A stretch of DNA of 15,468 bases, from assembly GCA_902773215.1 (NCBI GenBank), contig CACYDQ010000298.1:1-15468 (forward strand). Direction: 5' to 3'. The notes beneath the pieces are model-generated. The model was not told the origin of the DNA, made no database searches, and was given only the letters and a program-made list of their open reading frames with translations. A program made the translations under genes and the position numbers. This DNA comes from an uncultured Spirochaetaceae bacterium (GTDB lineage Bacteria; Spirochaetota; Spirochaetia; Treponematales; Treponemataceae). This document shows, one piece after another, positions 3,004 to 15,468 of this stretch. How positions within the stretch are numbered: the stretch's first letter is position 1; each line of letters starts with the position of its first letter.

Positions 3004-3960
3004 TTAGAATGTGTAGACGTAGCTCACGCCGATGGAGAGGGCTCGGCGGGTGAAGGTGTCAAAGCGGAAATCCTTGTTCCACCTGTCACTGTCAGCATCC
3101 CAGGACCATGCGGTTCCGCTTGCCTTGGCATCTTTCTTGGAGGCCTCCTTGAGGTCGGTCTCGCCCTTCACGGCTATGAAGTCCAGGAGGTAGCGCAGGT
3201 CGCCCACTATCATGTTGTGGTCGTCGAACTTGTAGCCGAAGCTTCCTCCGAGGATAAGCCCGGGGATGACCCCGTTCGTGATTTTGGCGTCAACGCTGGA
3301 AGAATTGGACTTGCTCTTGTCCGGATAGCCATCAATCAGCCTTCCGTCATAATATGCCCTCGTCGTAGTTGTTGCGGCATCATCCGACCAGGAGACTTTG
3401 CCGACCGGGATGGACAGGTTCAGGCCTCCGTAGGGAGAAAGCACCATGCCGGGCCCGACCTCAAAATCATAGCCCGCGATAATCGGGATGTCAATGGAGC
3501 TGTAGCTCATGCTGCCCGTTCCCTCGCATTCCAATTCTACCCTCGAGTGCGTGGTAGGACGGGTTTCATATTCCCAATCGAACTTGTACTTGACGATGTT
3601 ATGGGAAAAGCCGATTTCCGGCTGCAGGAAAAGGCCGGGAACGGCGTCAAAGGTTATCCTCCCTATCAGTGCCCCGCCCGCGACGATGCTCTCGAAGGGC
3701 TTGACCTTCAGCTTCATGTCATCCCAGCCGGGATCGAAATCATCCTGACGGCCTACGGACAAGCCGTACGACCTGGCCTGATCTACCCAGGCATCCCACA
3801 AAGCATCATAATATGATTTGGCATAATTCTCCGCGACGTTCGTGCTCGACCCCAGCCCGAAGCCGAAGGTGCCCCTCGCACCGATTCCAAAATGCACTCC
3901 CTGCGCTGAAATAAGGCCGGCGGCACCGACGGCCAGCAAGGACGCTATCAATCTCTTCAT
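3004..3960 (-). CDS. Outer-membrane beta-barrel protein with signal peptide
   Basis: 318 residues. The N-terminus MKRLIASLLAVGAAGLISAQ is a classic Sec signal peptide with likely cleavage at Ala19-Gln20 (SA|Q). The mature part alternates hydrophobic and polar residues and is rich in Gly and aromatics, for example VHFGIGARGTFGFGLG, RITFDAVPGLFLQPEIGFSH, VLSPYGGLNLSIP and GLILGGSFGYKFDDHN. It ends in SIGVSYVYTF, with the terminal Phe typical of proteins inserted by the BamA machinery. This fits the porin-like or opacity-like barrel families common in treponemes. An extracellular-loop-like segment rich in Ser, Thr and Asp lies at about residues 194-225. The substrate or adhesion role cannot be told. 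The gene stands alone with its own promoter (3979-4006). The ribosome-binding site is a weak GGGGG about 8 bases before the ATG. Confidence 0.85.
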   Translation of the reverse strand: MKRLIASLLAVGAAGLISAQGVHFGIGARGTFGFGLGSSTNVAENYAKSYYDALWDAWVDQARSYGLSVGRQDDFDPGWDDMKLKVKPFESIVAGGALIGRITFDAVPGLFLQPEIGFSHNIVKYKFDWEYETRPTTHSRVELECEGTGSMSYSSIDIPIIAGYDFEVGPGMVLSPYGGLNLSIPVGKVSWSDDAATTTTRAYYDGRLIDGYPDKSKSNSSSVDAKITNGVIPGLILGGSFGYKFDDHNMIVGDLRYLLDFIAVKGETDLKEASKKDAKASGTAWSWDADSDRWNKDFRFDTFTRRALSIGVSYVYTF

Positions 3961-4409: not shown

Positions 4410-4639
4410 TTTGCCGTACAACCCAGAAACCCGAGACGCAAAAAACAATTTTTTTTTGCCCGCGAAGTTTCGATTTTTGTCTTTCATGGACAATACATAT
4501 AGAAGAGCCATAAGCGCCCCTGCTTCCCTTGCGGGAAGACAAGCGCGGCGCACCCCGGATTCCACAGGGAGTCAGCCGACCTCCGCGCAACGGGAATCTG
4601 CCTGTGGCTCGAACAAAACTTATCCATGAGGAGAAGCGT

Positions 4640-5569
4640 ATGAAAGACGAAGAGATTCTGGGGAACTCTGCCCGGCCCCATCCTGCCCGGCCGGCAATCG
4701 TGGCTCTGCAGGATTCCCTCCTGCCCGTCCGCGAGTACAAGGACAGGCTGTTCAAGAAAATTTTCGGCGACACGACGGAGGAAAGCAAGCGCTGGCGGCT
4801 GGATTTGTATAACGCCCTCAACGGCACGGCGTACACCGACCCGGACGAGCTCAAGCTGACGACCATCGAGAACGTCATCTATGTCACGATGAAGAACGAC
4901 ATTTCCTTCCTCATAGGCAGTCAGATGAACCTATATGAACAACAATCGACGTTCAACCCGAACATGCCCTTGCGCGGGCTCATGTACTTCGCCCAGCTCT
5001 ACCAGATGAATTTGTCCGCGAGAGGATTGGACTTGTTCGGTTCCACGCTCGTGAAGATTCCCTCGCCCAGCTTTATCGTCTTCTACAACGGCGACCGCGA
5101 GATGCCCGACGTGTCGGAGCAGAAACTGTCCGATGCCTTTGAGCCCGCTGGCAGCGGAAAGGGCTTCGAGTGGACGGCGAAAGTGATAAACATCGGCGGG
5201 AATCACAGCGGGGACTTGCTGAAAAGGTGCAGGGCGTTGTATGATTACTGTAGCTACGTGGATCGCGTAAAAGGTAATCTTAAGACAGGAATGCCGAAAA
5301 AAGCCGCTGTCGGAGAAGCCGTCGACTACGCCATAAAGGAAAACTACCTTGACGGCTTTTTCAAATCGCAGAAAATGGAGGTGATGAACATGAGCTTGAC
5401 GGAGTTTGACCAGGAGGAGTACGACCGCAACCGGCGGCGGGAAGAAAAGGAAGAAATCGCCCAGAACATGCTGGCGAGGAACTATCCGGTAACCGACATC
5501 GCCGAGATAACCGGTCTCTCCCTCGCTGACGTGGCCCGGCTGAGCGAGGAGCTGGCCGGAGCCCGCTAG
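4640..5569 (+). CDS. Rpn-family PD-(D/E)XK nuclease / putative transposase
   Basis: 309 residues from ATG 4640, chosen because GAGGAG (4628-4633) lies 6 bases before it; the upstream extension to 4529 is not protein-like. The protein matches the PDDEXK_2 (Rpn, recombination-promoting nuclease) families common in gut anaerobes. YKDRLFKKIFGD (33-44) is the usual N-terminal signature, then ENVIYVTMKNDISFL (77-91), SQMNLYEQQSTFNPNMPLRG (94-113), the strand LVKIPSPSFIVFYNGD (137-152), and a Glu/Arg-rich region EEYDRNRRREEKEE. Likely catalytic residues are Glu77, Asp87 and Glu100-Gln101; this assignment is inferred. The C-terminus (about 281-305, VTDIAEITGLSLADVARLSE) is helix-turn-helix-like. Known relatives cut DNA and promote RecA-independent recombination. 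The gene has its own terminator and sits between two 23-bp-period arrays. A broken copy lies at 1768-2469. Confidence 0.85.
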   Translation: MKDEEILGNSARPHPARPAIVALQDSLLPVREYKDRLFKKIFGDTTEESKRWRLDLYNALNGTAYTDPDELKLTTIENVIYVTMKNDISFLIGSQMNLYEQQSTFNPNMPLRGLMYFAQLYQMNLSARGLDLFGSTLVKIPSPSFIVFYNGDREMPDVSEQKLSDAFEPAGSGKGFEWTAKVINIGGNHSGDLLKRCRALYDYCSYVDRVKGNLKTGMPKKAAVGEAVDYAIKENYLDGFFKSQKMEVMNMSLTEFDQEEYDRNRRREEKEEIAQNMLARNYPVTDIAEITGLSLADVARLSEELAGAR

Positions 5570-5908: not shown

Positions 5909-6721
5909 CTATTCGATTTCCTGAAGACTGTCAGAAACAGATTTCACTTTCCTTGTGGCGATGTCGAAGGCCTCGCGGTTCTTCCCCCTGTGGCTGGAGC
6001 CCGAGAAGTTGAAGACAATGATGTCGTCAAAGATCCTGTCCATCGCGCACCTGAGGGCATCGTCCTCCGCGAAGCACCGCCTCCAGAACTTCGGCTGCTT
6101 GTTGCTGGTGAAGACGATGTTGAAGTTCCCCTCCTTGTTGTACCTCCTGTCTATCATGTCGAAGAACAGCCTGGTGTTCTCCGCGTCGAAGTCGCAGTAG
6201 CCGACCTCGTCGATGATGAGGCAGGAAGGCTTGACGAGGGAGCCGACGGCCCTGTTCTGGCGGCCGTACTTCCTGGCCTCGGTCAGGATGTCGTTCAGCT
6301 CCGTCATCTTGACGAAGTACGCCTTCATCAGCCGCCTGCAGCATTCGTAGCCGAACGCCATCGCGAGGTGCGTCTTCCCCGTGCCGGACGGCCCGATGAA
6401 GGCGATGTTCCTGCGGGCGTAGAGCGGCGCGAGCGTCATTATGGACTTGAGCCTGTCGAGGCCGTTCCCGGAGAGCTCGCCGAAGTCGAAGTTCCCGAAC
6501 GTCCTCGGGTTCCTCACGGGGAGCCTCGAGCTTTTCAGGAGGAAGTCGACGGACGCCCTGGCCTTCCTCTCCGCGAGCTCGGCGAACACCTCCGCAACCG
6601 ACTCCATCTGCGCCCCGGAGTACCCCTTCCCCAGCATGAAGGCGGATATCTCGTCTGCCCCGACCTTGAGGTTGAGTGTCCCAAGGCTCCTTCCGAGGGA
6701 CTCCATGATGTCATTCTCCAT
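5909..6721 (-). CDS. istB: IS21-family helper ATPase IstB
   Basis: 270 residues, an AAA+ ATPase that helps the IstA transposase select and deform target DNA. Walker A is GPSGTGKTH (110-118) and Walker B is CLIIDEVG (167-174, Asp171-Glu172). The arginine-rich region near 228-232 (CAMDRIFDD) fits the sensor/Arg-finger part of DnaC/IstB-like proteins. Residues 1-100 match the IstB N-terminal region that contacts the transposase. The ATG at 6721 overlaps the end of istA by 11 bases, the standard coupled arrangement in this family. Length and motifs are complete, so it should be functional. Confidence 0.95.
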   Translation of the reverse strand: MENDIMESLGRSLGTLNLKVGADEISAFMLGKGYSGAQMESVAEVFAELAERKARASVDFLLKSSRLPVRNPRTFGNFDFGELSGNGLDRLKSIMTLAPLYARRNIAFIGPSGTGKTHLAMAFGYECCRRLMKAYFVKMTELNDILTEARKYGRQNRAVGSLVKPSCLIIDEVGYCDFDAENTRLFFDMIDRRYNKEGNFNIVFTSNKQPKFWRRCFAEDDALRCAMDRIFDDIIVFNFSGSSHRGKNREAFDIATRKVKSVSDSLQEIE

Positions 6722-8033
6722 GGCCGCCCCCGCTGAAATCGAACTGGTCGAAGTAGTCGTCCCCCAGGGCCTTTGAGGCCAGCTGGCGCACGAGCGTCCG
6801 CACGGGGGCCGTAGGGAATTCCTCCGGCTGGTCGGGCCTGGCGTACTGGTCCTTGCAGTAGCTGTCCTTCCGGCTCCATGTCACCTCGTGCCTCGCGAGC
6901 AGGCCCTTCATGTCGGCGGAGTATATGAGGAGCTCCCTGCCCCGCCTGCAGACGCGCACCGTCTTCTGGACGTATGAATACGGCACGCCGAACCTCCTGC
7001 CCTCGTAGTTCACGAACCCGTCGAACGAGATCCTCCGCTCGGGGCAGAGGTACGGGAGGAGGCTCCCGTCTTCTTCGAGGCTTGCGGCCACGCGGAGGCA
7101 TTCCCCCGCATGCTCGTCGTTGGGCACCATGTCCAGCGCCCTGTGGTATATGGAGTTCTGCCTGTTGCACCAGTCAAGCCCCTGCTCGTTGAGGTCGGTG
7201 ACGTTCAGGAACTCCCTCCCGGCGAGGAAGTTGTCCTTCACGAAGCGGACGAGCCGCTCCACCTTGCCCTTGGTGAACGGGTGGTAGGGCCTGCAGAGCC
7301 TCGTCTGGAATCCCACCGCCGCCATGAACGCCTCGTAGTCGTGGTTCCACAGCGGGCGGCCGTCCGCGTCCCGTCCGGTGACGACGGACTTCATGTTGTC
7401 GGTCAGCACCGTCTTCGGGACCCACATGTACCTGAAGGCATGGATCATCCCTATGAACAGGTTCTCCTGCTTCGCGTTCGGGAAGAACTCGATGAACCGC
7501 TGCCCGCAGTGGTGGCAGACCATGGCGAAGCATGCCGCCCGGACAATCTCCCCGTCCGCGGTGAGCACGTCCGTGAAGCCCCAGTCCATCTGGTAGCTCT
7601 GCCCCGGCCCGGTGGCGTAGCGGCGGCCTCGGTTCCCCTGCGGGGATACGGCCTGCCTCTTTGCGGGGACGAGGCCGCGGTGCCGCGCGATGTAGACCTT
7701 TATGGCCGTGAGACCTCCGCTGTAGCCGACCTCGCGCAGCCTGTCGAGGCACCTCTGCGAGTTCGTGACGTTCTTCCTCAGAAGGTCGTCGAGCACGGCG
7801 GTGTAGCCGGTGAGGACCGTCTTCTCCGGCCTCCTCCCCCTGTTGCCGTGGGGGAGCTCCCTGAACCCGTTCCTCTTGAGACGCCTCAGCCTTGCCCGCG
7901 AGATTCCGGTCAGCCTGCCGAGCTCCGCGAGGTTCACGTCCTCCTCCCTGAACCCGCCGCCTTCGCGGCCCTTAATAATTTCCAGCGCCTGTGATACACT
8001 CAGGAACTGGCCGTTGTCTGTTCTTTCGCTCAT
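6711..8033 (-). CDS. istA: IS21-family transposase IstA
   Basis: 440 residues when started at ATG 8033, which has AAGGAG (8043-8038) 4 bases upstream; an extension to 8153 would run into the terminal repeat and is rejected. An N-terminal helix-turn-helix (about 33-56, LAELGRLTGISRARLRRLKR) is followed by a second DNA-binding region and a DDE integrase core. Catalytic residues are Asp150 in SYQMDWGF, Asp212 in TVLTDNMKS and Glu259 in TKGKVERLVRF. The C-terminal part after 350 (FVNYEGRRFGVPYSYV) is the usual beta-rich domain of IstA. It catalyses strand transfer of the element together with IstB and is translationally coupled to istB. Confidence 0.95.
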   Translation of the reverse strand: MSERTDNGQFLSVSQALEIIKGREGGGFREEDVNLAELGRLTGISRARLRRLKRNGFRELPHGNRGRRPEKTVLTGYTAVLDDLLRKNVTNSQRCLDRLREVGYSGGLTAIKVYIARHRGLVPAKRQAVSPQGNRGRRYATGPGQSYQMDWGFTDVLTADGEIVRAACFAMVCHHCGQRFIEFFPNAKQENLFIGMIHAFRYMWVPKTVLTDNMKSVVTGRDADGRPLWNHDYEAFMAAVGFQTRLCRPYHPFTKGKVERLVRFVKDNFLAGREFLNVTDLNEQGLDWCNRQNSIYHRALDMVPNDEHAGECLRVAASLEEDGSLLPYLCPERRISFDGFVNYEGRRFGVPYSYVQKTVRVCRRGRELLIYSADMKGLLARHEVTWSRKDSYCKDQYARPDQPEEFPTAPVRTLVRQLASKALGDDYFDQFDFSGGGHGE

Positions 8034-8098
8034 GTCGCTCCTTGGATGGAATTCTTGGTCGGAACCCCATTCTAAGGACTCATGGCGGGGACTGGCAA

Positions 8099-8171
8099 TG
8101 GCTTTTTTTGCGCGACTAAAATTGGCTGTTTTCTTCCGACCGGGAGTGGTCAAACTCGCCCGACGCTAACA
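8099..8171 (-). repeat. IS21 right end with three 24-bp-spaced motifs
   Basis: Plus-strand TGGTC at 8147 and TGGCT at 8123 and 8099 are complements of the GACCA/AGCCA motif, again exactly 24 bp apart. The outer 61 bases align without gaps to the left end. Confidence 0.8.
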
Positions 8172-8294: not shown

Positions 8295-9050
8295 ATGTAT
8301 ACGAAAGAAAACGCAGGACAGGTCATCGCGTTCGGTTTCAGCGCGCACAACCTTGTCATGATGGAATCCGAGCTTGCAATCCTGTGGCCGGGGCGCCGCT
8401 TTTCACCCTGCATGAACGCGGTCGAGCTGAACAGGCTGCTGGGCGGGAATACGCTTTCCCGGGAAAGAGCCGGGGAGCTCTCGCTCCTGGTCAACCTGAG
8501 CCGGGAATTCCATGAGCTGGACAGCGCGCTCAGGATGGCGGACGGACGCGGCATCCCGGTCATCGGGGCCGTCGCGACGGATTTCATCAACGCCTACAGC
8601 CTGCGCCTGTGCCTGGACCGGGAGCTTCCCGCCATAATCGGCGAGCTTAACAGCCGGGAAGAGCTGGGCGAGGCAAGGGACGCGATCAGGGCGGGAAGGC
8701 GGTTCGTCCCCCGCACGCTCCTGCGCGATGAAGGATACCGCTTCGTGGATCCGGCAGTCTGCCTGTCGCTCCTGAGCGACAACGAGGCCCTGTGCGTGGA
8801 CGCGAGGCTCGGGGGGCTTTCCGTCAAGGAAATTGCCGGCCGCATGAAGGCCAGCGACTCCACCGTCCGCACCTACGTCAACCGGGCATTCGCCAAGCTG
8901 GGGGTCTCCACGGCGGAAGAGCTCGCATGGCTCCTCGCCGGGCATCCGTCGGGATGCTACCACAGGGAACGGGGCACGCGGCAGAGAATGCTCTTCCCCG
9001 CCCGGAAATCCCGCACGGACATAAAAAAGCCGGAGCAAGCTTACACTTGA
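8295..9050 (+). CDS. LuxR/FixJ-type transcriptional regulator
   Basis: 251 residues; ATG 8295 lies 5 bases after GGAGG. The C-terminal region 157-215 is a LuxR-type helix-turn-helix: LSLLSDNEALCVDARLGGLS, then VKEIAGRMKASDSTVRTYVN and RAFAKLGVSTAEELAWLL. The position of the recognition helix (DSTVRTYVNRAFAKLGV) matches the GerE/LuxR pattern. The N-terminal 130 residues have alternating strands and helices like a receiver domain (IAFGFSAHN, IPVIGAVATDF, RELPAIIG), but I see no acidic pocket or phosphorylated Asp, so it is at best a pseudo-receiver. About 35 residues follow the helix-turn-helix, and the last ten codons overlap the terminator hairpin of the opposite-strand RNA candidate. The target genes are unknown; it is the only DNA-binding regulator in a window with three phosphorelay proteins. 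Confidence 0.8.
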   Translation: MYTKENAGQVIAFGFSAHNLVMMESELAILWPGRRFSPCMNAVELNRLLGGNTLSRERAGELSLLVNLSREFHELDSALRMADGRGIPVIGAVATDFINAYSLRLCLDRELPAIIGELNSREELGEARDAIRAGRRFVPRTLLRDEGYRFVDPAVCLSLLSDNEALCVDARLGGLSVKEIAGRMKASDSTVRTYVNRAFAKLGVSTAEELAWLLAGHPSGCYHRERGTRQRMLFPARKSRTDIKKPEQAYT

Positions 9051-9056
9051 TCCGGC
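9023..9056 (-). terminator. Intrinsic terminator of the structured RNA candidate
   Basis: Minus strand: GCCGGA (9056-9051) pairs with TCCGGC (9034-9029), and inside it CAAG (9049-9046) pairs with CTTG (9039-9036). Six T follow directly (9028-9023). There is no T run on the plus strand, so the signal is specific to minus-strand transcripts. It overlaps the last codons of the plus-strand LuxR-type gene. Confidence 0.8.
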
Positions 9057-9230
9057 GCCCGATGGGTAAGATTGTGCTTGCGGTTGCGATCCAAACTGAG
9101 AAGGAGTGGAAAACTTAGTTTCTCGCGCTTCCTCATGGATTCCCCGGGACGGTGACCCTTCCCCTGAGGGGGAAGGAACTGTCTCCCGAAGGCTCCATAC
9201 CGTTTATCCGTCGGGTCTCATCCCCTCAAC
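9023..9230 (-). ncRNA. Candidate free-standing structured RNA, about 207 nt
   Basis: A good promoter (TGGACA-N17-TATAAT, 9265-9237) and a good terminator (9056-9023) bracket a region with no convincing gene. The predicted transcript can fold. CCCGACGGATAA (9215-9204) pairs with TTACCCATCGGG (9069-9058) in 10 of 12 positions, closing the molecule. A long imperfect hairpin lies inside it (TGGA, CTTCGGGA and CCTTCCCC on one side; GGGGAAGG, TCCCGGGG and TCCA on the other, 9197-9136). A smaller one follows (AAACTAAG/CTCAGTTT, about 9121-9092). A closing stem, an asymmetric central loop with a small hairpin and a terminal rod of this size recall 6S RNA, but I see no decisive signature, and no RNase P, tmRNA or SRP RNA motif. 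An alternative is a message for two short overlapping ORFs. Confidence 0.55.
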
Positions 9231-9236
9231 GTACCG

Positions 9237-9265
9237 ATTATATAGACAGAAAATCCCTTTGTCCA
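9237..9265 (-). promoter_or_regulatory. Sigma-70 promoter of the structured RNA candidate
   Basis: Minus strand TGGACA (9265-9260), exactly 17 bases, TATAAT (9242-9237): five of six and six of six consensus matches, the best sigma-70 promoter in the window. It points away from the receiver-Hpt gene and towards the gene-free stretch 9051-9230. Expected start is about 9230. Confidence 0.75.
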
Positions 9266-9308
9266 GTGAAAACAGGGCGAATTCAGCAAAAAAAATGCCC
9301 TACGTTCG

Positions 9309-10226
9309 TTAGTTTGCCAGATAATCCGAGGCAGCTTCGACAGCCTTCCCGTAAGCTTCCAGCAGCGCGGCGACGTTTGCCCTGACATACTCCAGGTCCC
9401 CGTCGCGGGATGCATGCTCGGCTTTTTCCGCCAGATCCCCCAGAATCATCGCGCCTACCATTCGTGAGCTTGACTTGAGGGAATGCGTCGCTATGCGGTG
9501 TTTGGCAAGGTCGCCTTCCTTCGCGCTCTTCTGTATCGTGTATCCGTTCTCCATGTACGCGTCCGCCCAGTTCTTGAGCAGCTGCTTGTACATCTCCGTG
9601 TCGCCCCCGGAAAAGGCCAGTCCCCTCGCGGCATCCAGCGGCGCGGACGCTTCTGCCGGGACCGCAGCCTGCGCCATTGTGCCGTCCGCACCCTCGCCGC
9701 CGTCTTCCCCGGTCATCTCCTGTATCTTCGCGAAAAGCCCTCGCTTTCTGGGGGCGGCGGGGGCAGCTTTCGTGGCTTCCGGCTCGTTCCGCGTGACTTT
9801 CCCGGGGGGCAGGAGGGCAAGCAGGAGCTTCTCCACGTCCTCGGGCAGGACGGGCTTGGGCAGGTAGTCGGCGAAGCCCTCCCCCTTGTAATAGGCACGG
9901 GTGGCCTCGCGGGGCGAGAGCGACGGGTCGGCCCCTTCCGCCCGCATGTCGTTGCCGGTCAGGGCGACGAAGGGGGTGGAAAGGTTCAGGTTTCCTTCCA
10001 TAGTATGTGCCATGCGGAAGGCCTCAAGCCCGTCGGGCTGGGGCATCACGTGGTCAAGGAGGACAAGGTCGAACTGTTCTTTGCAGAGGAGGTCGAGCAT
10101 CTCCTGCCCGCCCGTAGCCGTCACGAGCCCGGCCTGGGTGGGAGAGAGGAGGCGCTCCAGAACCATAAGGTTTATCTCCTGGTCGTCCACGGCCAGGATT
10201 CTGGCTTGAGGTGCAGTAAAATTCAT
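9309..10226 (-). CDS. Receiver-Hpt phosphotransfer protein
   Basis: 305 residues with two signalling domains. Residues 9-137 form a response-regulator receiver: acidic pocket Asp14-Asp15 (ILAVDDQEINL), phosphorylated Asp58 (LVLLDHVMPQPDG), Thr90 (ALTGND) and Lys124 (YLPKPV). A flexible Ala/Pro/Gly-rich linker (about 140-195) leads to an Hpt domain (198-303) with phospho-acceptor His248 in the motif ATHSLKSSSRMVGA. Such proteins pass phosphate between receivers in multistep relays. There is no DNA-binding or enzymatic output. The gene follows the double-receiver gene by 15 bases and is surely co-transcribed. No Shine-Dalgarno sequence is visible in that gap, so translation may depend on coupling. 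Confidence 0.9.
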   Translation of the reverse strand: MNFTAPQARILAVDDQEINLMVLERLLSPTQAGLVTATGGQEMLDLLCKEQFDLVLLDHVMPQPDGLEAFRMAHTMEGNLNLSTPFVALTGNDMRAEGADPSLSPREATRAYYKGEGFADYLPKPVLPEDVEKLLLALLPPGKVTRNEPEATKAAPAAPRKRGLFAKIQEMTGEDGGEGADGTMAQAAVPAEASAPLDAARGLAFSGGDTEMYKQLLKNWADAYMENGYTIQKSAKEGDLAKHRIATHSLKSSSRMVGAMILGDLAEKAEHASRDGDLEYVRANVAALLEAYGKAVEAASDYLAN

Positions 10227-10241
10227 CCGTAGTGACCGCGG

Positions 10242-11060
10242 CTACTTCTTCATGAATGTCGGAGAGGGCGGGTTCAGGAAGTTCATCACCTTCTGGATGA
10301 TGACCATCGGCGGCGTCGTCTTGAGGACGTAGCCGACGGGCTTCTCGATGAGGATTTCCTTGACCACGTCCTTGCTGTCGTTCCCGGTCAGGAAGATGAC
10401 GGGGATGGTCGCGGTCTTGGGCTCCATCTTGAGCGAGCGGTAGACCTCAAGCCCGGACATCAGCGGCATCTCGTAGTCGAGCAGCATCAGGTCGATGTGG
10501 TTCTGCTTGGCGGCGCTTATCGCGTCGGTGCCGATTCCTTCCGCTATGACGTTGAAGAACTTGATGAACCAGGACTTGAGCGCGCCCAGGTAGACCGGGT
10601 CGTCGTCCACGATGAGGAGAGTCTTCTTCTTGGGATCCACCGCATAGCTCTTCTCCGTGGGGGAGATGACGTAGTTCAGGCTGTTGGTGCGGATCATGCC
10701 GATGACCTTCTCGGAGGTCACAGGACGCTCCACGACACCGGTGATGAGGGCTTCCTCGATGTACTCCTTGGCGTGGGAGATTTCCGAGGGCTGGCCGATG
10801 AGGTAGAATTTCTTGCGGTCGCTGCCCATCAGGTTCTTGAGCGTGGGGAATATATCGCTGAAAGTACTCTCGATGTCCTCAAGGAACACGAGTATAATAT
10901 CCGGTGAGGCATACTCTGCGTGGGACTGCATATCACGGATTATGCTGCCGTTGGCCGTACAGAACGTGACATCATAGCTCTCCTTTTTGAGCGCGGAAAT
11001 GAGCGTCTGCACGAGGAAGTTCGCGGAATCGCCGGCAACAAACAGAATTTTTTCGTCCAT
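10242..11060 (-). CDS. Double-receiver response regulator without output domain
   Basis: 272 residues from the ATG at 11060 (MDEKILFVAGD). The start at 11066 is only one base after the -10 box and 11096 is upstream of it, so both are unlikely. The N-terminal receiver-like domain (4-125) is degenerate: no acidic pair after the first strand, FLED where the phosphorylated Asp would be, and ERPVT in place of the conserved Lys-Pro. The C-terminal receiver (146-262) is complete: Asp152-Asp153 (LLIVDDDPVY), Asp195 (LMLLDYEMPLMSG), Thr225 (FLTGND) and Lys247 (VLKTTPP). With no output domain it should act as a phosphate carrier or through protein contacts, probably in a relay with the receiver-Hpt protein encoded next in the operon. 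Confidence 0.88.
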   Translation of the reverse strand: MDEKILFVAGDSANFLVQTLISALKKESYDVTFCTANGSIIRDMQSHAEYASPDIILVFLEDIESTFSDIFPTLKNLMGSDRKKFYLIGQPSEISHAKEYIEEALITGVVERPVTSEKVIGMIRTNSLNYVISPTEKSYAVDPKKKTLLIVDDDPVYLGALKSWFIKFFNVIAEGIGTDAISAAKQNHIDLMLLDYEMPLMSGLEVYRSLKMEPKTATIPVIFLTGNDSKDVVKEILIEKPVGYVLKTTPPMVIIQKVMNFLNPPSPTFMKK

Positions 11061-11067
11061 ATCCATA

Positions 11068-11096
11068 ATTATACAAGAGGTCAATTGATAATGCAA
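11068..11096 (-). promoter_or_regulatory. Sigma-70 promoter of the double-receiver operon (leaderless)
   Basis: Minus strand TTGCAT (11096-11091), 17 bases, TATAAT (11073-11068). The ATG at 11060 begins 8 bases after the last T of the -10 box, so the transcript should start at or next to the start codon. No Shine-Dalgarno site precedes that ATG within the expected transcript. Confidence 0.65.
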
Positions 11097-11250: not shown

Positions 11251-11259
11251 TGATACAAT
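11251..11259 (+). promoter_or_regulatory. Extended -10 promoter for dnaN
   Basis: TGATACAAT: TG at the extended -10 position and TACAAT as the hexamer, with no clear -35 box. The expected start is near 11266, so the leader would be only about 13 bases and begin at the ribosome-binding site AAGGAG (11265-11270). Confidence 0.5.
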
Positions 11260-11278
11260 GGAAGAAGGAGTTTTGACG

Positions 11279-12403
11279 ATGAAGTTCACTTTTGACCGCG
11301 ACGCGATGATCGGCGAGGTAGCAATCGCACAGGAGATAATCTCGACCAAGAACGCGGGTTCCATACTTTCCAACGTGTTCCTTTCGGCAGCCGGCAACAC
11401 GCTCACGATAAAGGCGACGGACGTGAAGGTCTCCTTCCTTGCCTCCGTGCCGGTGCAGGTGCAGGAGGAAGGCTCCACCACCGTTTACTGCGACAAGTTC
11501 ATAGGCATCCTTTCCGCGCTCCCGGCGGGCGAGGTGGAGTTCGTCCAGCAGGCCGATGACGGGGGGCAGGCCCAGGGCGTGGTCATCCGCCCGGTCGGCA
11601 AGAAGATAAAGTTCGAGATGCGGACGATGAGCGAGGAGAAGTTCCCCGAGGTCGCCGTCTCCGAGGACGCCCCTTACTTCGAGGTCGGGGCCAAGGAAAT
11701 CAAGGAGATGATTGCGCAGACGATTTTCGCCGTCTCCAGCGACGAGACCCGCTACTTCATGAACGGCGTGTACTTCGAGAAGAAGGGGGACAGGCTGAAC
11801 ATGGTGGCGACCGACGGAAGGCGCATGGGCTTTTCCTCCAAGGAAATCCTCGCGGGCGTGCCGGACTTCCCCGCCGCGATAATCCATCCCAAGGTGCTCG
11901 GAATCGTCCTGAAGCACTGCCCGGACGAGGGCAATATCTGCATGGCGATTGTCGATAAGATGGTCTTCTTCAAGTTCGCGAGCTACCGCTTCGGGGCGGC
12001 CCTGATTGACGGCCAGTTCCCCGCATACGAGCGCGTCATCCCCGCGAGCCAGGCCCACAGCTTCACCGTCTCCAAGGACGAGCTCGTCTCGGCGATGAAG
12101 CGCGTCGCCCTGATGGTGGACAAGAAGGCGGGCCGCATCTACTTCAACATAGAGCCGGGACTCCTCCGCATTACCAGCCGCCAGAGCGACCTGGGCAGCG
12201 CGGACGAGGAGATTGCCTCATCTTACGAGGGCGAGAGCTCCGTCATCGCGATGAACTACCGCTACATTGACGAGCCGCTCCGCGTCATCGGCGCGGACAG
12301 GATAGCCTTCGAGTTCAGCGAGGAGATGAAGGCCGTCACGATGCGGCCAGAGCCCGCCTCCCACTACTTCCACATCATCATGCCGATGCAGAAGGAAGCC
12401 TAG
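11279..12403 (+). CDS. dnaN: DNA polymerase III beta subunit (sliding clamp)
   Basis: 374 residues, the normal length for the ring-shaped processivity clamp that holds DNA polymerase III on DNA. The ATG at 11279 follows AAGGAG by 8 bases and gives the expected beginning MKFTFDRDAMIGEVAIAQEI; the upstream ATG at 11258 lies inside the -10 box and is rejected. Family segments include ILSNVFLSAAGNTLTIKATD (domain 1), DETRYFMNGVYFE and MVATDGRRMGFS (domain 2), and the C-terminal HIIMPMQ, which lines the partner-binding pocket. It is a single-gene unit here, followed by a strong terminator and not by recF. dnaA is not in the window, so its usual linkage cannot be judged on the upstream side beyond the divergent response-regulator operon. 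Confidence 0.96.
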   Translation: MKFTFDRDAMIGEVAIAQEIISTKNAGSILSNVFLSAAGNTLTIKATDVKVSFLASVPVQVQEEGSTTVYCDKFIGILSALPAGEVEFVQQADDGGQAQGVVIRPVGKKIKFEMRTMSEEKFPEVAVSEDAPYFEVGAKEIKEMIAQTIFAVSSDETRYFMNGVYFEKKGDRLNMVATDGRRMGFSSKEILAGVPDFPAAIIHPKVLGIVLKHCPDEGNICMAIVDKMVFFKFASYRFGAALIDGQFPAYERVIPASQAHSFTVSKDELVSAMKRVALMVDKKAGRIYFNIEPGLLRITSRQSDLGSADEEIASSYEGESSVIAMNYRYIDEPLRVIGADRIAFEFSEEMKAVTMRPEPASHYFHIIMPMQKEA

Positions 12404-13524: not shown

Positions 13525-15468
13525 TTATGATTCTGTCTGCGCTTTTTCGTAGGCCTCTTCGAGGGCCTTATAGAGCGCGTCCTTGTTGATTGGCTTGGAG
13601 ATGTGCCCGTTCATGCCGGAGCTGAGGCTCTGCTGGACAGCCTCGCTATAGGCGTTGGCGGAGAGGGCGAAGATAGGGATGGTCTTCGCGTCCTCCCTGT
13701 CCAGCGAGCGGATGGCTTCGGTCGCCTCGTAGCCGGAAAGGACCGGCATCTGGATGTCCATCAGGATGCAGATGTAGGTTCCCGGTTCGCATTCCTTGAA
13801 GCGCTTGACGGCGATGGCCCCGTTCTCGGCGGTGTCCGCCTCCAGGCCCATGGCGGAGAGGGTGCGGATGGCTATCTCGGTGTTTATCTCGTTGTCTTCG
13901 GCGAGGAGGACGCGGCCGGAAAGCTTTTTCCGGAGGTCCGAAGCCTGCCTCTGCAGCGACTTGCCGCTCGTTCCCTCTTCGTAGGGGAAGCTTATCTGCA
14001 TGTGGATTTTGGTTCCTTCGTGCAGCTTGCTTTTGACTTCGATCGTGCCGCCCATCAGTTCGACAAGCTTTTTGACGATGTAAAGGCCTATTCCCGTCCC
14101 CGAGCGGAGCTTCTGCCGCTCCGGGTTCCCCAGGTCCTGCGTGAAGGGGGTGAACATCTTCTTCTGGAAGTCATCCCCCATTCCGATTCCGGTGTCCGCC
14201 ACCGTTATGCCGACGGAGCACAGCTTGTCGTCCAGGCGGCGGGAGGCCAGGGTGAACGTGATGCGGCCGCCCTTGGGCGTGTACTTGTAGGCGTTGGAGA
14301 CGAGGTTCAGGACTATCTGGTTGAGCCGCACCTTGTCGGCCCATATCGCGCTGACCTCAACCCCGGACGTGACGGTGAGGAACTCCACCCCCTTCTGATC
14401 GCAGAGGGGGACGAACATGTTCTGTATGTCTCCGATGAACTCGTCGTGGTAGTAAATCTCCGGCACCAGCTCTATGCGGCCCGAGTCTATCTTGGACACG
14501 TCGAGCACGTCGTTTATCAGGCTCATCAGGAACTTGTTGGACGAGCTTATCTTCTCCAGGTCGGAAAGGAGCTTCTCCCTCTCGTCTATGTCCTCGAAGG
14601 CGAAGTCCGTCATGCTCGTTATCGCGGACAGCGGGGTGCGGATGTCGTGGCTGATGCGGGAGATGAATTCCATCTTGGACTTGGCGGCGTTCTCCGCCTC
14701 CAGGACGGCGTTCTCCAGGTTCTTCACGTACTCCTGCTCCTTGGCGTAGGACTCCGTCACGTCCAGGCAGAGGGCGAGCAGGATGTCCATCTCCTCGAAG
14801 GCCCAGGAGAACACGACCTGCAGGCGGCTCTCCCTGCCCCCGGCGACCTGGTTGAAGGAGACGGCGTAGGCCTTCTTGCTCCTGAGCTCCTCGCGTATCC
14901 TCTCTATGCTGGTCGCCTCAAGGTATGCCTGCCTCTCCGCGTCGGTCTGTATGAAGTGCTCCGCCCGTATCCTGCGGACCTCGGCGTAGCTCGAGAGGTC
15001 CACGTTCTGGGGTATGAAGTAGATGTCGGTGCTGTTGGAGAAGAACTCCACCTCCCTCGTGTCCGCATAGACGAACGCGATGAAGTGGAAGCTCTCGGAG
15101 GCGAGGGATTTGACGATGAAGGTGTGCTTCTTCTCCTCGCTAATGTCCACGAGGTAGGTCAGGGCCTCCACGGAGTCGGTCTCCGGGTTCATGCTGAGGT
15201 TCGCCGTGATGCGGAGCCACTTCATCTCGAGCCCGGTGGACGAGTTGGGGAACTCCATGTAGATCTGCTGGATGCCGTTCGTGAAGTCCAGGCGCATGGA
15301 CTCCAGCGAGAAGCGGTCGAAGAACTCGCTCTGCAGCTTGGGGTCCCCTATGTCCATGCCGACCGCGTAGATGAATCCGTCCGCCGTGTCCGACCCGTGC
15401 CGCCTGAGCACCTCGTCGGAGATGCTCTTGTGCTCGTGGCAGCGGTTCTGCGCCAGGTCGAGCAGGGC
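13525..15468 (-). CDS. Hybrid sensor histidine kinase, 5' end outside the window
   Basis: The reading frame is open to the right edge, so the true start is missing; 647 residues are visible (numbered from the edge). Two PAS-like sensor domains end in TYLVDISEEKK (about 104-114) and LCLDVTESYAKEQ (about 233-245). Then come HisKA with phospho-acceptor His274 (SRISHDIRTPLSAI), a HATPase domain with N box LNQIVLNLVSNAYK (around 383-396), G1 DTGIGMG and G2 GTGIGLYIVKKL, and a receiver domain with acidic pair in LLAEDNEIN, phosphorylated Asp571 (ILMDIQMPVLSG) and Lys625 (HISKPI). No membrane segment is visible in this part. All catalytic residues are in place. The domain set implies a multistep relay needing an Hpt protein, and one is encoded 3 kb away (9309-10226). 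Confidence 0.95.
   Translation of the reverse strand, partial: ALLDLAQNRCHEHKSISDEVLRRHGSDTADGFIYAVGMDIGDPKLQSEFFDRFSLESMRLDFTNGIQQIYMEFPNSSTGLEMKWLRITANLSMNPETDSVEALTYLVDISEEKKHTFIVKSLASESFHFIAFVYADTREVEFFSNSTDIYFIPQNVDLSSYAEVRRIRAEHFIQTDAERQAYLEATSIERIREELRSKKAYAVSFNQVAGGRESRLQVVFSWAFEEMDILLALCLDVTESYAKEQEYVKNLENAVLEAENAAKSKMEFISRISHDIRTPLSAITSMTDFAFEDIDEREKLLSDLEKISSSNKFLMSLINDVLDVSKIDSGRIELVPEIYYHDEFIGDIQNMFVPLCDQKGVEFLTVTSGVEVSAIWADKVRLNQIVLNLVSNAYKYTPKGGRITFTLASRRLDDKLCSVGITVADTGIGMGDDFQKKMFTPFTQDLGNPERQKLRSGTGIGLYIVKKLVELMGGTIEVKSKLHEGTKIHMQISFPYEEGTSGKSLQRQASDLRKKLSGRVLLAEDNEINTEIAIRTLSAMGLEADTAENGAIAVKRFKECEPGTYICILMDIQMPVLSGYEATEAIRSLDREDAKTIPIFALSANAYSEAVQQSLSSGMNGHISKPINKDALYKALEEAYEKAQTES

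Follow-up and report, generated by a model that had tools for sequence, protein, structure and literature searches.

A candidate small RNA family of Treponema with long and short forms and a possible small RNA partner

The intergenic DNA between a receiver-Hpt gene and a LuxR-type regulator gene of an uncultured Spirochaetaceae bacterium carries a promoter-like sequence and a terminator-like hairpin on the same strand, raising the question of whether a small RNA is made here and, if so, of what kind. The first-pass annotation of this contig, whose 15,468 nucleotides were analysed as one window, had proposed a structured non-coding RNA, bounded by a promoter and a terminator of its own and similar to 6S RNA in size and outline. 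Our comparison across 274 genomes of the family indicates that the window transcript, here RNA A, is very probably a real small RNA (sRNA) of gut-type Treponema, and that its family, as judged from sequence, is wider than that annotation could see. We regard RNA A as a candidate new sRNA family of Treponema; its kind is known, but its putative partner, RNA B, and its location are unusual.

Analysis of the window revealed the expected boundaries of a transcription unit. The long form of RNA A occupies positions 9023 to 9230 of the minus strand (about 208 nt), with its start deduced from the promoter and its extent compared in an alignment of copies. Upstream, on the same strand, a −35 box TGGACA (9260–9265) and a −10 box TATAAT (9237–9242) are separated by 17 bases and match the consensus at 11 of 12 positions; the promoter is thus present as claimed, but it is not the sole best sigma-70 site of the window, being tied with a second 11/12 site at 3494–3466. 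In relatives the −35 box reads TAGACA or TGGACA, followed by AAA, and the −10 box lies within TATATAAT in seven of the eight copies, with TATATACT in the copy from genome G252. The transcript ends in a terminator (9023–9056, minus strand) composed of GCCGGATCAAG and CTTGCTCCGGC at 9056–9029, which fold as a hairpin, and six T at 9028–9023, as the first reading of the locus had described; a pattern scan of the window did not list this terminator. We infer from this predicted promoter and terminator that RNA A is transcribed from its own start.

The fold of the window copy gives a less sharp picture. The two arms of a possible closing stem, CCCGACGGATAA (9204–9215) and TTACCCATCGGG (9058–9069), both on the minus strand, form the 10 of 12 pairs noted earlier, with the 5' arm altered to CCCAACGG in the copy G213b. 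The long rod anticipated for the interior was also recovered, with z = −3.3 when the middle rod was folded alone and z = −2.1 to −6.6 for the middle domains of the six copies folded. The whole RNA, predicted to be multibranched, folded moderately better than shuffled sequences (z = −2.0, with 5 of 200 shuffles equally good), a score that by itself would not convince.

Decisive support for RNA A as a real RNA comes instead from conservation. A blastn search with positions 9000–9290 found only the window itself among 59 relatives, and seven strong matches in six other genomes of the genus among the 274 family genomes (G234, G164, G252, G257, G165 and two contigs of G213; E = 2.8e-72 to 2.1e-24), giving eight long-form copies in seven genomes with the window included. 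These matches begin at query bases 7–25, just before the −35 box at base 26, and end at bases 268–281, where base 268 is the end of the T-run; the exception is G257, whose contig ends within the RNA. The alignment thus holds from promoter to T-run and decays outside, which upholds the proposal of a non-coding RNA with its own signals. Complete copies are 97 nt (G165), 146 nt (G252) or 198–252 nt long, and because length varies freely between fixed ends we ruled out a protein-coding stretch. RNA A has the gene layout of a trans-acting bacterial sRNA: it is intergenic, has its own promoter and intrinsic terminator and no conserved reading frame, and overlaps the LuxR-type gene at its 3' end.

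Within these fixed ends, conservation is uneven. On the minus strand, the variable middle domain that folds as a rod (9135–9203) is absent in G165 and nearly absent in G252, and a hairpin formed by GAGGAAGCGCGAG and CTCCTTCTC (9098–9134), otherwise conserved, is altered in G252 and missing in G165. The most constant part is a 44-nt core at 9057–9100: the seven copies that span it share 43 of its 44 bases. Two short segments of this strand are central to what follows: site 1, GAGGGGAU at 9220–9227, in the G-rich 5' end, and site 2, CCCAUCGGGC at 9057–9066, which overlaps the 3' arm of the possible closing stem.

The 6S-like length of the window copy is due to the variable middle domain, and the resemblance to 6S RNA did not hold at the level of the family. 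6S RNA is known to bind RNA polymerase and to act as a template from which product RNA is made. RNA A shares with it the length of the window copy and the possible closing stem, but it gave no match to the 6S covariance model (RF00013), and most of its relatives are far shorter (about 60–120 nt). A 6S-type rod, whose large central bubble imitates an open promoter, would find no room in the short relatives, and the predicted fold of the window RNA is multibranched. At the gathering score the window matched no Rfam family, in line with the earlier remark that no signature of a known class was visible, and between 8950 and 9320 no 6S appeared among the Rfam matches up to E = 10, the window RNA having sub-threshold matches only. 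RF00013 passed its cut-off in none of 59 genomes of the order, which would leave a vacancy for a divergent 6S RNA; this result is weak because, of 14 control genomes, no more than 4 passed the cut-off in the same search. We rejected 6S RNA as the family, and consider a 6S RNA that has diverged past recognition extremely improbable. Rfam likewise yielded nothing at the gathering score for 14 loci with RNA A or for six loci including two with RNA B; up to E = 10, a short RNA A and two RNA B loci gave sub-threshold matches only. The strongest, anti-hemB on RNA B of T. putidum (28.2 bits where the cut-off is 49.5; E = 5.7e-5), we read as probably reflecting a common hairpin-plus-terminator outline.

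The genes around the long form are largely constant. The convergent LuxR-type gene (8295–9050, plus strand; Pfam GerE), whose last 28 bases lie inside the RNA A terminator in the window, is the neighbour in all seven copies with sequence on that side. The receiver-Hpt gene (9309–10226, minus strand; Pfam Response_reg and Hpt) lies upstream of the RNA A promoter and adjoins RNA A in five of the seven other copies. dnaN (11258–12403, plus strand) lies 2 kb away, and the order dnaN, response regulator, receiver-Hpt, RNA, LuxR-type is found in the window, G165, G252 and one G213 copy, with G234 and G164 showing the same order from the response regulator onward, as far as their stretches reach. RNA A is preceded instead, in G257 and the other G213 copy, by a gene whose sequence was identified by eye as an ABC-2 type permease. 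The receiver-Hpt, receiver and hybrid histidine kinase genes near dnaN (9309–11096 and 13525–15411) may constitute a phosphorelay cluster beside RNA A. Elsewhere in the window, an IS21-type element with IstB and integrase-core genes (5909–8153) adjoins the LuxR-type gene and was not found in the other long-form loci compared, and two open frames (1849–2469 and 4529–5569) encode closely similar proteins and so represent a repeated gene, the longer product of which (4529–5569) matches no Pfam family.

This arrangement bears on the possibility that the long form acts mainly in cis, through a 3' end that runs antisense to the tail of the LuxR-type mRNA, or through convergent transcription that damps the gene. 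Besides the constancy of this neighbour, close homologues of the LuxR-type protein occur in six of the 274 genomes, all of which carry the long form (matches in three further genomes reach only 24–28%, and G257, whose contig ends inside RNA A, has no close match), and the gene overlaps RNA A by about 25–30 bases in six of seven copies. GerE, at the C-terminus, is the sole Pfam match of this protein; no Pfam family covers the N-terminal half, which seems to be confined to the window's clade. A cis role would nevertheless leave the 44-nt core unexplained, there is no overlap in G252, and the shorter relatives described below lie beside gyrA with no LuxR-type neighbour in the loci read, making regulation mainly in cis an unlikely account.

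Short relatives of RNA A were recovered in other species of the genus with a covariance model (R1) built on the 3' core of the long-form copies. Beyond the known copies, R1 gave ten weak matches in the 274 genomes (E = 6e-4 to 0.06), two of which (L083 and L088) were left out as chance. The remaining eight all had a sigma-70-like promoter, CCAUCAGGC and a GC-rich terminator, and six of the eight had UGGGGAU near the 5' end. A second model (R2), built from four of these short forms, matched 41 of 274 genomes at E ≤ 0.5, including five long-form copies (E = 0.005 to 0.43). A pattern combining signature and terminator matched 65 places in 60 of 274 genomes, compared to seven genomes for the reversed control (our own count). 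Thirteen of these places, in which the stem was no proper hairpin, were left out (G059, G061, G070, G075, two in G084, G092, contig 123 of G005, G169, G228, G230, G238 and G239), and 44 of 46 remaining places together with one in G265 make up the short-form set of 45 loci (L160–L204).

These short forms, too, carry the predicted signals of a transcription unit. With L193 and L202 excluded as cut by contig ends, 40 of 43 short loci had a promoter matching at least 10 of 12 positions, compared to a mean of 3.3 and a maximum of 7 in shuffles, adding support from a second set of loci for the promoter seen in the window. Among 12 close sequences, 10 of 26 pairs had changed on both sides, with a covariation of 0.309 versus 0.176 when shuffled and at most 0.101 when slid. 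All RNA A copies used share the core CCAUC(A/G)GG(C/U) next to the terminator, and in most of them the 5' end is rich in G; in several short-form folds this core sits, mostly unpaired, between P1 and the terminator hairpin. Site 2 of the window RNA is this same signature, carried by the short forms as CAUCAGGC. The case for placing both forms in a single family is built on their common layout, the signature and weak matches of each form to the other's model, and does not draw on position. Two other ideas were set aside: a role as a CsrA sponge through GGA motifs, several short classes having no G-run, and a possible likeness to a 16S rRNA helix.

The short forms share a chromosomal setting of their own. 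In 40 of 45 loci gyrA precedes the short form on the same strand, 97 to 3,105 bases away; among the five remaining loci, four have less than 800 bases of upstream sequence, leaving G073 as the only one that truly lacks it. The 0 to 1500 bases after the short form (L160–L204) are gene-poor and rich in DnaA boxes and parS-like TGTTTCACGTGAAACA. Counted in bins of 500 bp, the first bin after the terminator contained 9.6 exact DnaA boxes and 41 parS-like sites per 10 kb, compared to at most 0.5 and 3.8, respectively, in upstream bins. This stretch after gyrA and the short form is a putative oriC, raising the possibility that the short form belongs to the replication origin, where its transcription or its RNA would affect initiation or segregation, and that the long form is a copy moved elsewhere. 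Gene order is conserved around oriC, however, and this accounts for the position without any such role; parS-like sites are present in 38 of 45 short loci but absent from the stretch read in the other seven, and the long-form loci have none within three mismatches, so that we hold a function in the origin itself to be quite improbable. In the five long-form genomes with a readable gyrA end, no short form follows gyrA and another gene lies directly after it.

RNA B was found only through the complement of the RNA A signature. The complement, GCCTGATGG, occurs at 167 sites in the nine genomes searched; of the 30 read, one was RNA A itself and two (in G147 and G162) were the gene we call RNA B, which has a hairpin (SL1) with loop UUAUCCCCUCCCACCCAUU, then GCCUGAUGGGC, then a terminator, and by appearance is free-standing. 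Its two recurrent elements are the C-rich SL1 loop and a second element, GCCUGAUGG. The RNA B pattern matched 203 of the 274 genomes of the family, spread over 13 of 20 genera, against five genomes for the control (our own count), with at least one match among those listed (G091) looking like chance. In a named genome collection it marked at least 118 stretches, and the 80 matches listed all came from Treponema or other spirochaetes; it is also present in T. putidum, T. porcinum and a T. bryantii record. In the window's genome it lies on the minus strand of contig 383 (L419:1321–1403), located by pattern match. In other species a PEGA-like gene often precedes RNA B and a penicillin-binding-protein-like gene often follows it, both named by eye.

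RNA B shows strong covariation in SL1 and a recurrent type of promoter. Nine of ten SL1 pairs have changed on both sides around an invariant loop, with a covariation of 0.730 versus 0.277 shuffled and at most 0.125 slid. A sigma-28-like promoter was found upstream in 73 of 78 loci with a loose motif and in 63 of 78 with a strict one (shuffled means 2.8 and 0.6, respectively), the motif having been written after viewing the RNA B upstream sequences. It agrees with the TTAA and CCGATAA boxes of PflaB2 of T. denticola, a species reported to have FliA, FlgM and a sigma-28 flaB2 promoter (PMC9481697).

Comparison of the two RNAs revealed complementarity of RNA A to functional elements of RNA B in the same genome. 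Site 2 of the window RNA complements GCCUGAUGGG of its own RNA B with one G-U pair, in a predicted helix of 11 pairs at −21.0 kcal/mol, and site 1 complements AUCCCCUC in the SL1 loop. Site 2 complementarity within our collections is no test of pairing because the patterns that collected A and B are complementary by design. The compensatory change predicted at this site for the window's clade, GCCCGAUG in RNA B, was absent, a G-U pair standing in its place. At site 1, a run of at least 6 nt complementary to the B loop occurs in 31 of 41 short A (shuffles mean 8.6, maximum 15) and in seven of seven long A (mean 3.6, maximum 6). Among 35 paired genomes, GGGGAU in A accompanies AUCCCC in B in 12 and GGGGAA accompanies UUCCCC in six; for the base after GGGGA in A and the base before CCCC in B there is one exception (AU with UU), no AA with AU, and three other combinations, an association (Fisher 0.0003) that ignores kinship in clades that are not independent. 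Thirteen of the 35 paired A have no GGGG, just 7 of 35 genomes had a site-1 energy with the cognate B that surpassed shuffled A at p ≤ 0.05 (the median p being 0.335), and in the window it was not better than shuffles (p 0.425).

The distribution of the two RNAs is asymmetric. RNA B matches 52 of the 54 A-bearing genomes, which are our selection from blastn, R1, R2 and signature-pattern matches, compared to 151 of the 220 others, so B either can do without A or is accompanied in these genomes by an A that escaped our searches; all A and B counts ignore relatedness. One looser pattern search was unfit for counting, matching 53 of 54 genomes with a control nearly equal in GC-rich ones.

Because RNA A mirrors part of RNA B, it may be an antidote of B. 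We propose that RNA A, transcribed from its own sigma-70 promoter and ending at its own terminator, would base-pair with RNA B and keep it from its targets: site 1, present in most copies, would pair with the C-rich loop, and site 2, present in all copies used, with the second element. The loop is of a kind able to bind G-rich ribosome-binding sites, and the outcome would be control of motility or another sigma-28 output. Since the sites come in the same order in both RNAs, two separate contacts rather than a continuous duplex would be needed. We infer the meeting of A and B, the casting of A rather than B as antagonist, the targets and the motility or sigma-28 outcome from these sequence relationships. 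With weak pairing at one of two sites and the predicted compensatory base missing, we consider the evidence evenly poised on whether RNA A antagonises RNA B.

The weak pairing at site 1 would suit an ordinary trans-acting sRNA that uses CCAUCAGGC as a seed on mRNAs, with RNA B as its sponge or a chance complement, and the mostly unpaired signature and the many occurrences of its complement (167 in nine genomes) point the same way. However, no common gene start stood out among the 30 sites read, nothing convincing emerged there for gene starts as targets, and two of the 30 were RNA B and one was RNA A itself. We view conventional action on mRNAs as the less probable course, though one to be taken seriously.

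The antagonist reading can be extended to a two-RNA circuit of Treponemataceae, in which a sigma-28-driven RNA B would be opposed, in part of the genus, by an origin-anchored RNA A. The copy number of the origin, and hence growth rate, would set the amount of free B and thereby the motility machinery, and in the window's clade RNA A would have been captured by the LuxR-type regulator. This extension is speculative, and as a whole we doubt that it is correct.

In the open literature we found no paper on RNA A or RNA B and no described trans-acting sRNA of Treponema. The available parts of PMC7160235 and PMC8525777 contain nothing on either RNA. According to a portion of PMC8040213, thousands of structured RNAs are predicted, some in Treponema, and A or B may be among them.

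In sum, the locus leads to two candidate sRNA families with promoters, structures and a testable interaction. Should A and B truly pair, it becomes possible to test directly whether Treponema motility is controlled after transcription, and the short form of RNA A marks a putative replication origin downstream of gyrA.

Several known systems resemble parts of this arrangement. The 'cuckoo' sRNAs of alphaproteobacteria have conserved C-rich, anti-Shine-Dalgarno-like hairpin loops; the C-rich loop of RNA B is likened to these by description, in a different phylum. Control by a flagellar sigma factor, as the RNA B promoter suggests, is reported for E. coli sRNAs (PMC10578931, in part) and for the FliA-dependent CJnc170 of C. 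jejuni (PMC11187230, in part), a comparison that concerns RNA B and not the window RNA A. The four E. coli sRNAs, as described in that same portion of PMC10578931, are UTR-derived, unlike RNA B, which appears free-standing with its own terminator. Finally, the pair of A and B is likened by description to CJnc190 and CJnc180 of Campylobacter jejuni (PMC8687705, in part), although that pair is cis-encoded whereas A and B lie at separate loci.
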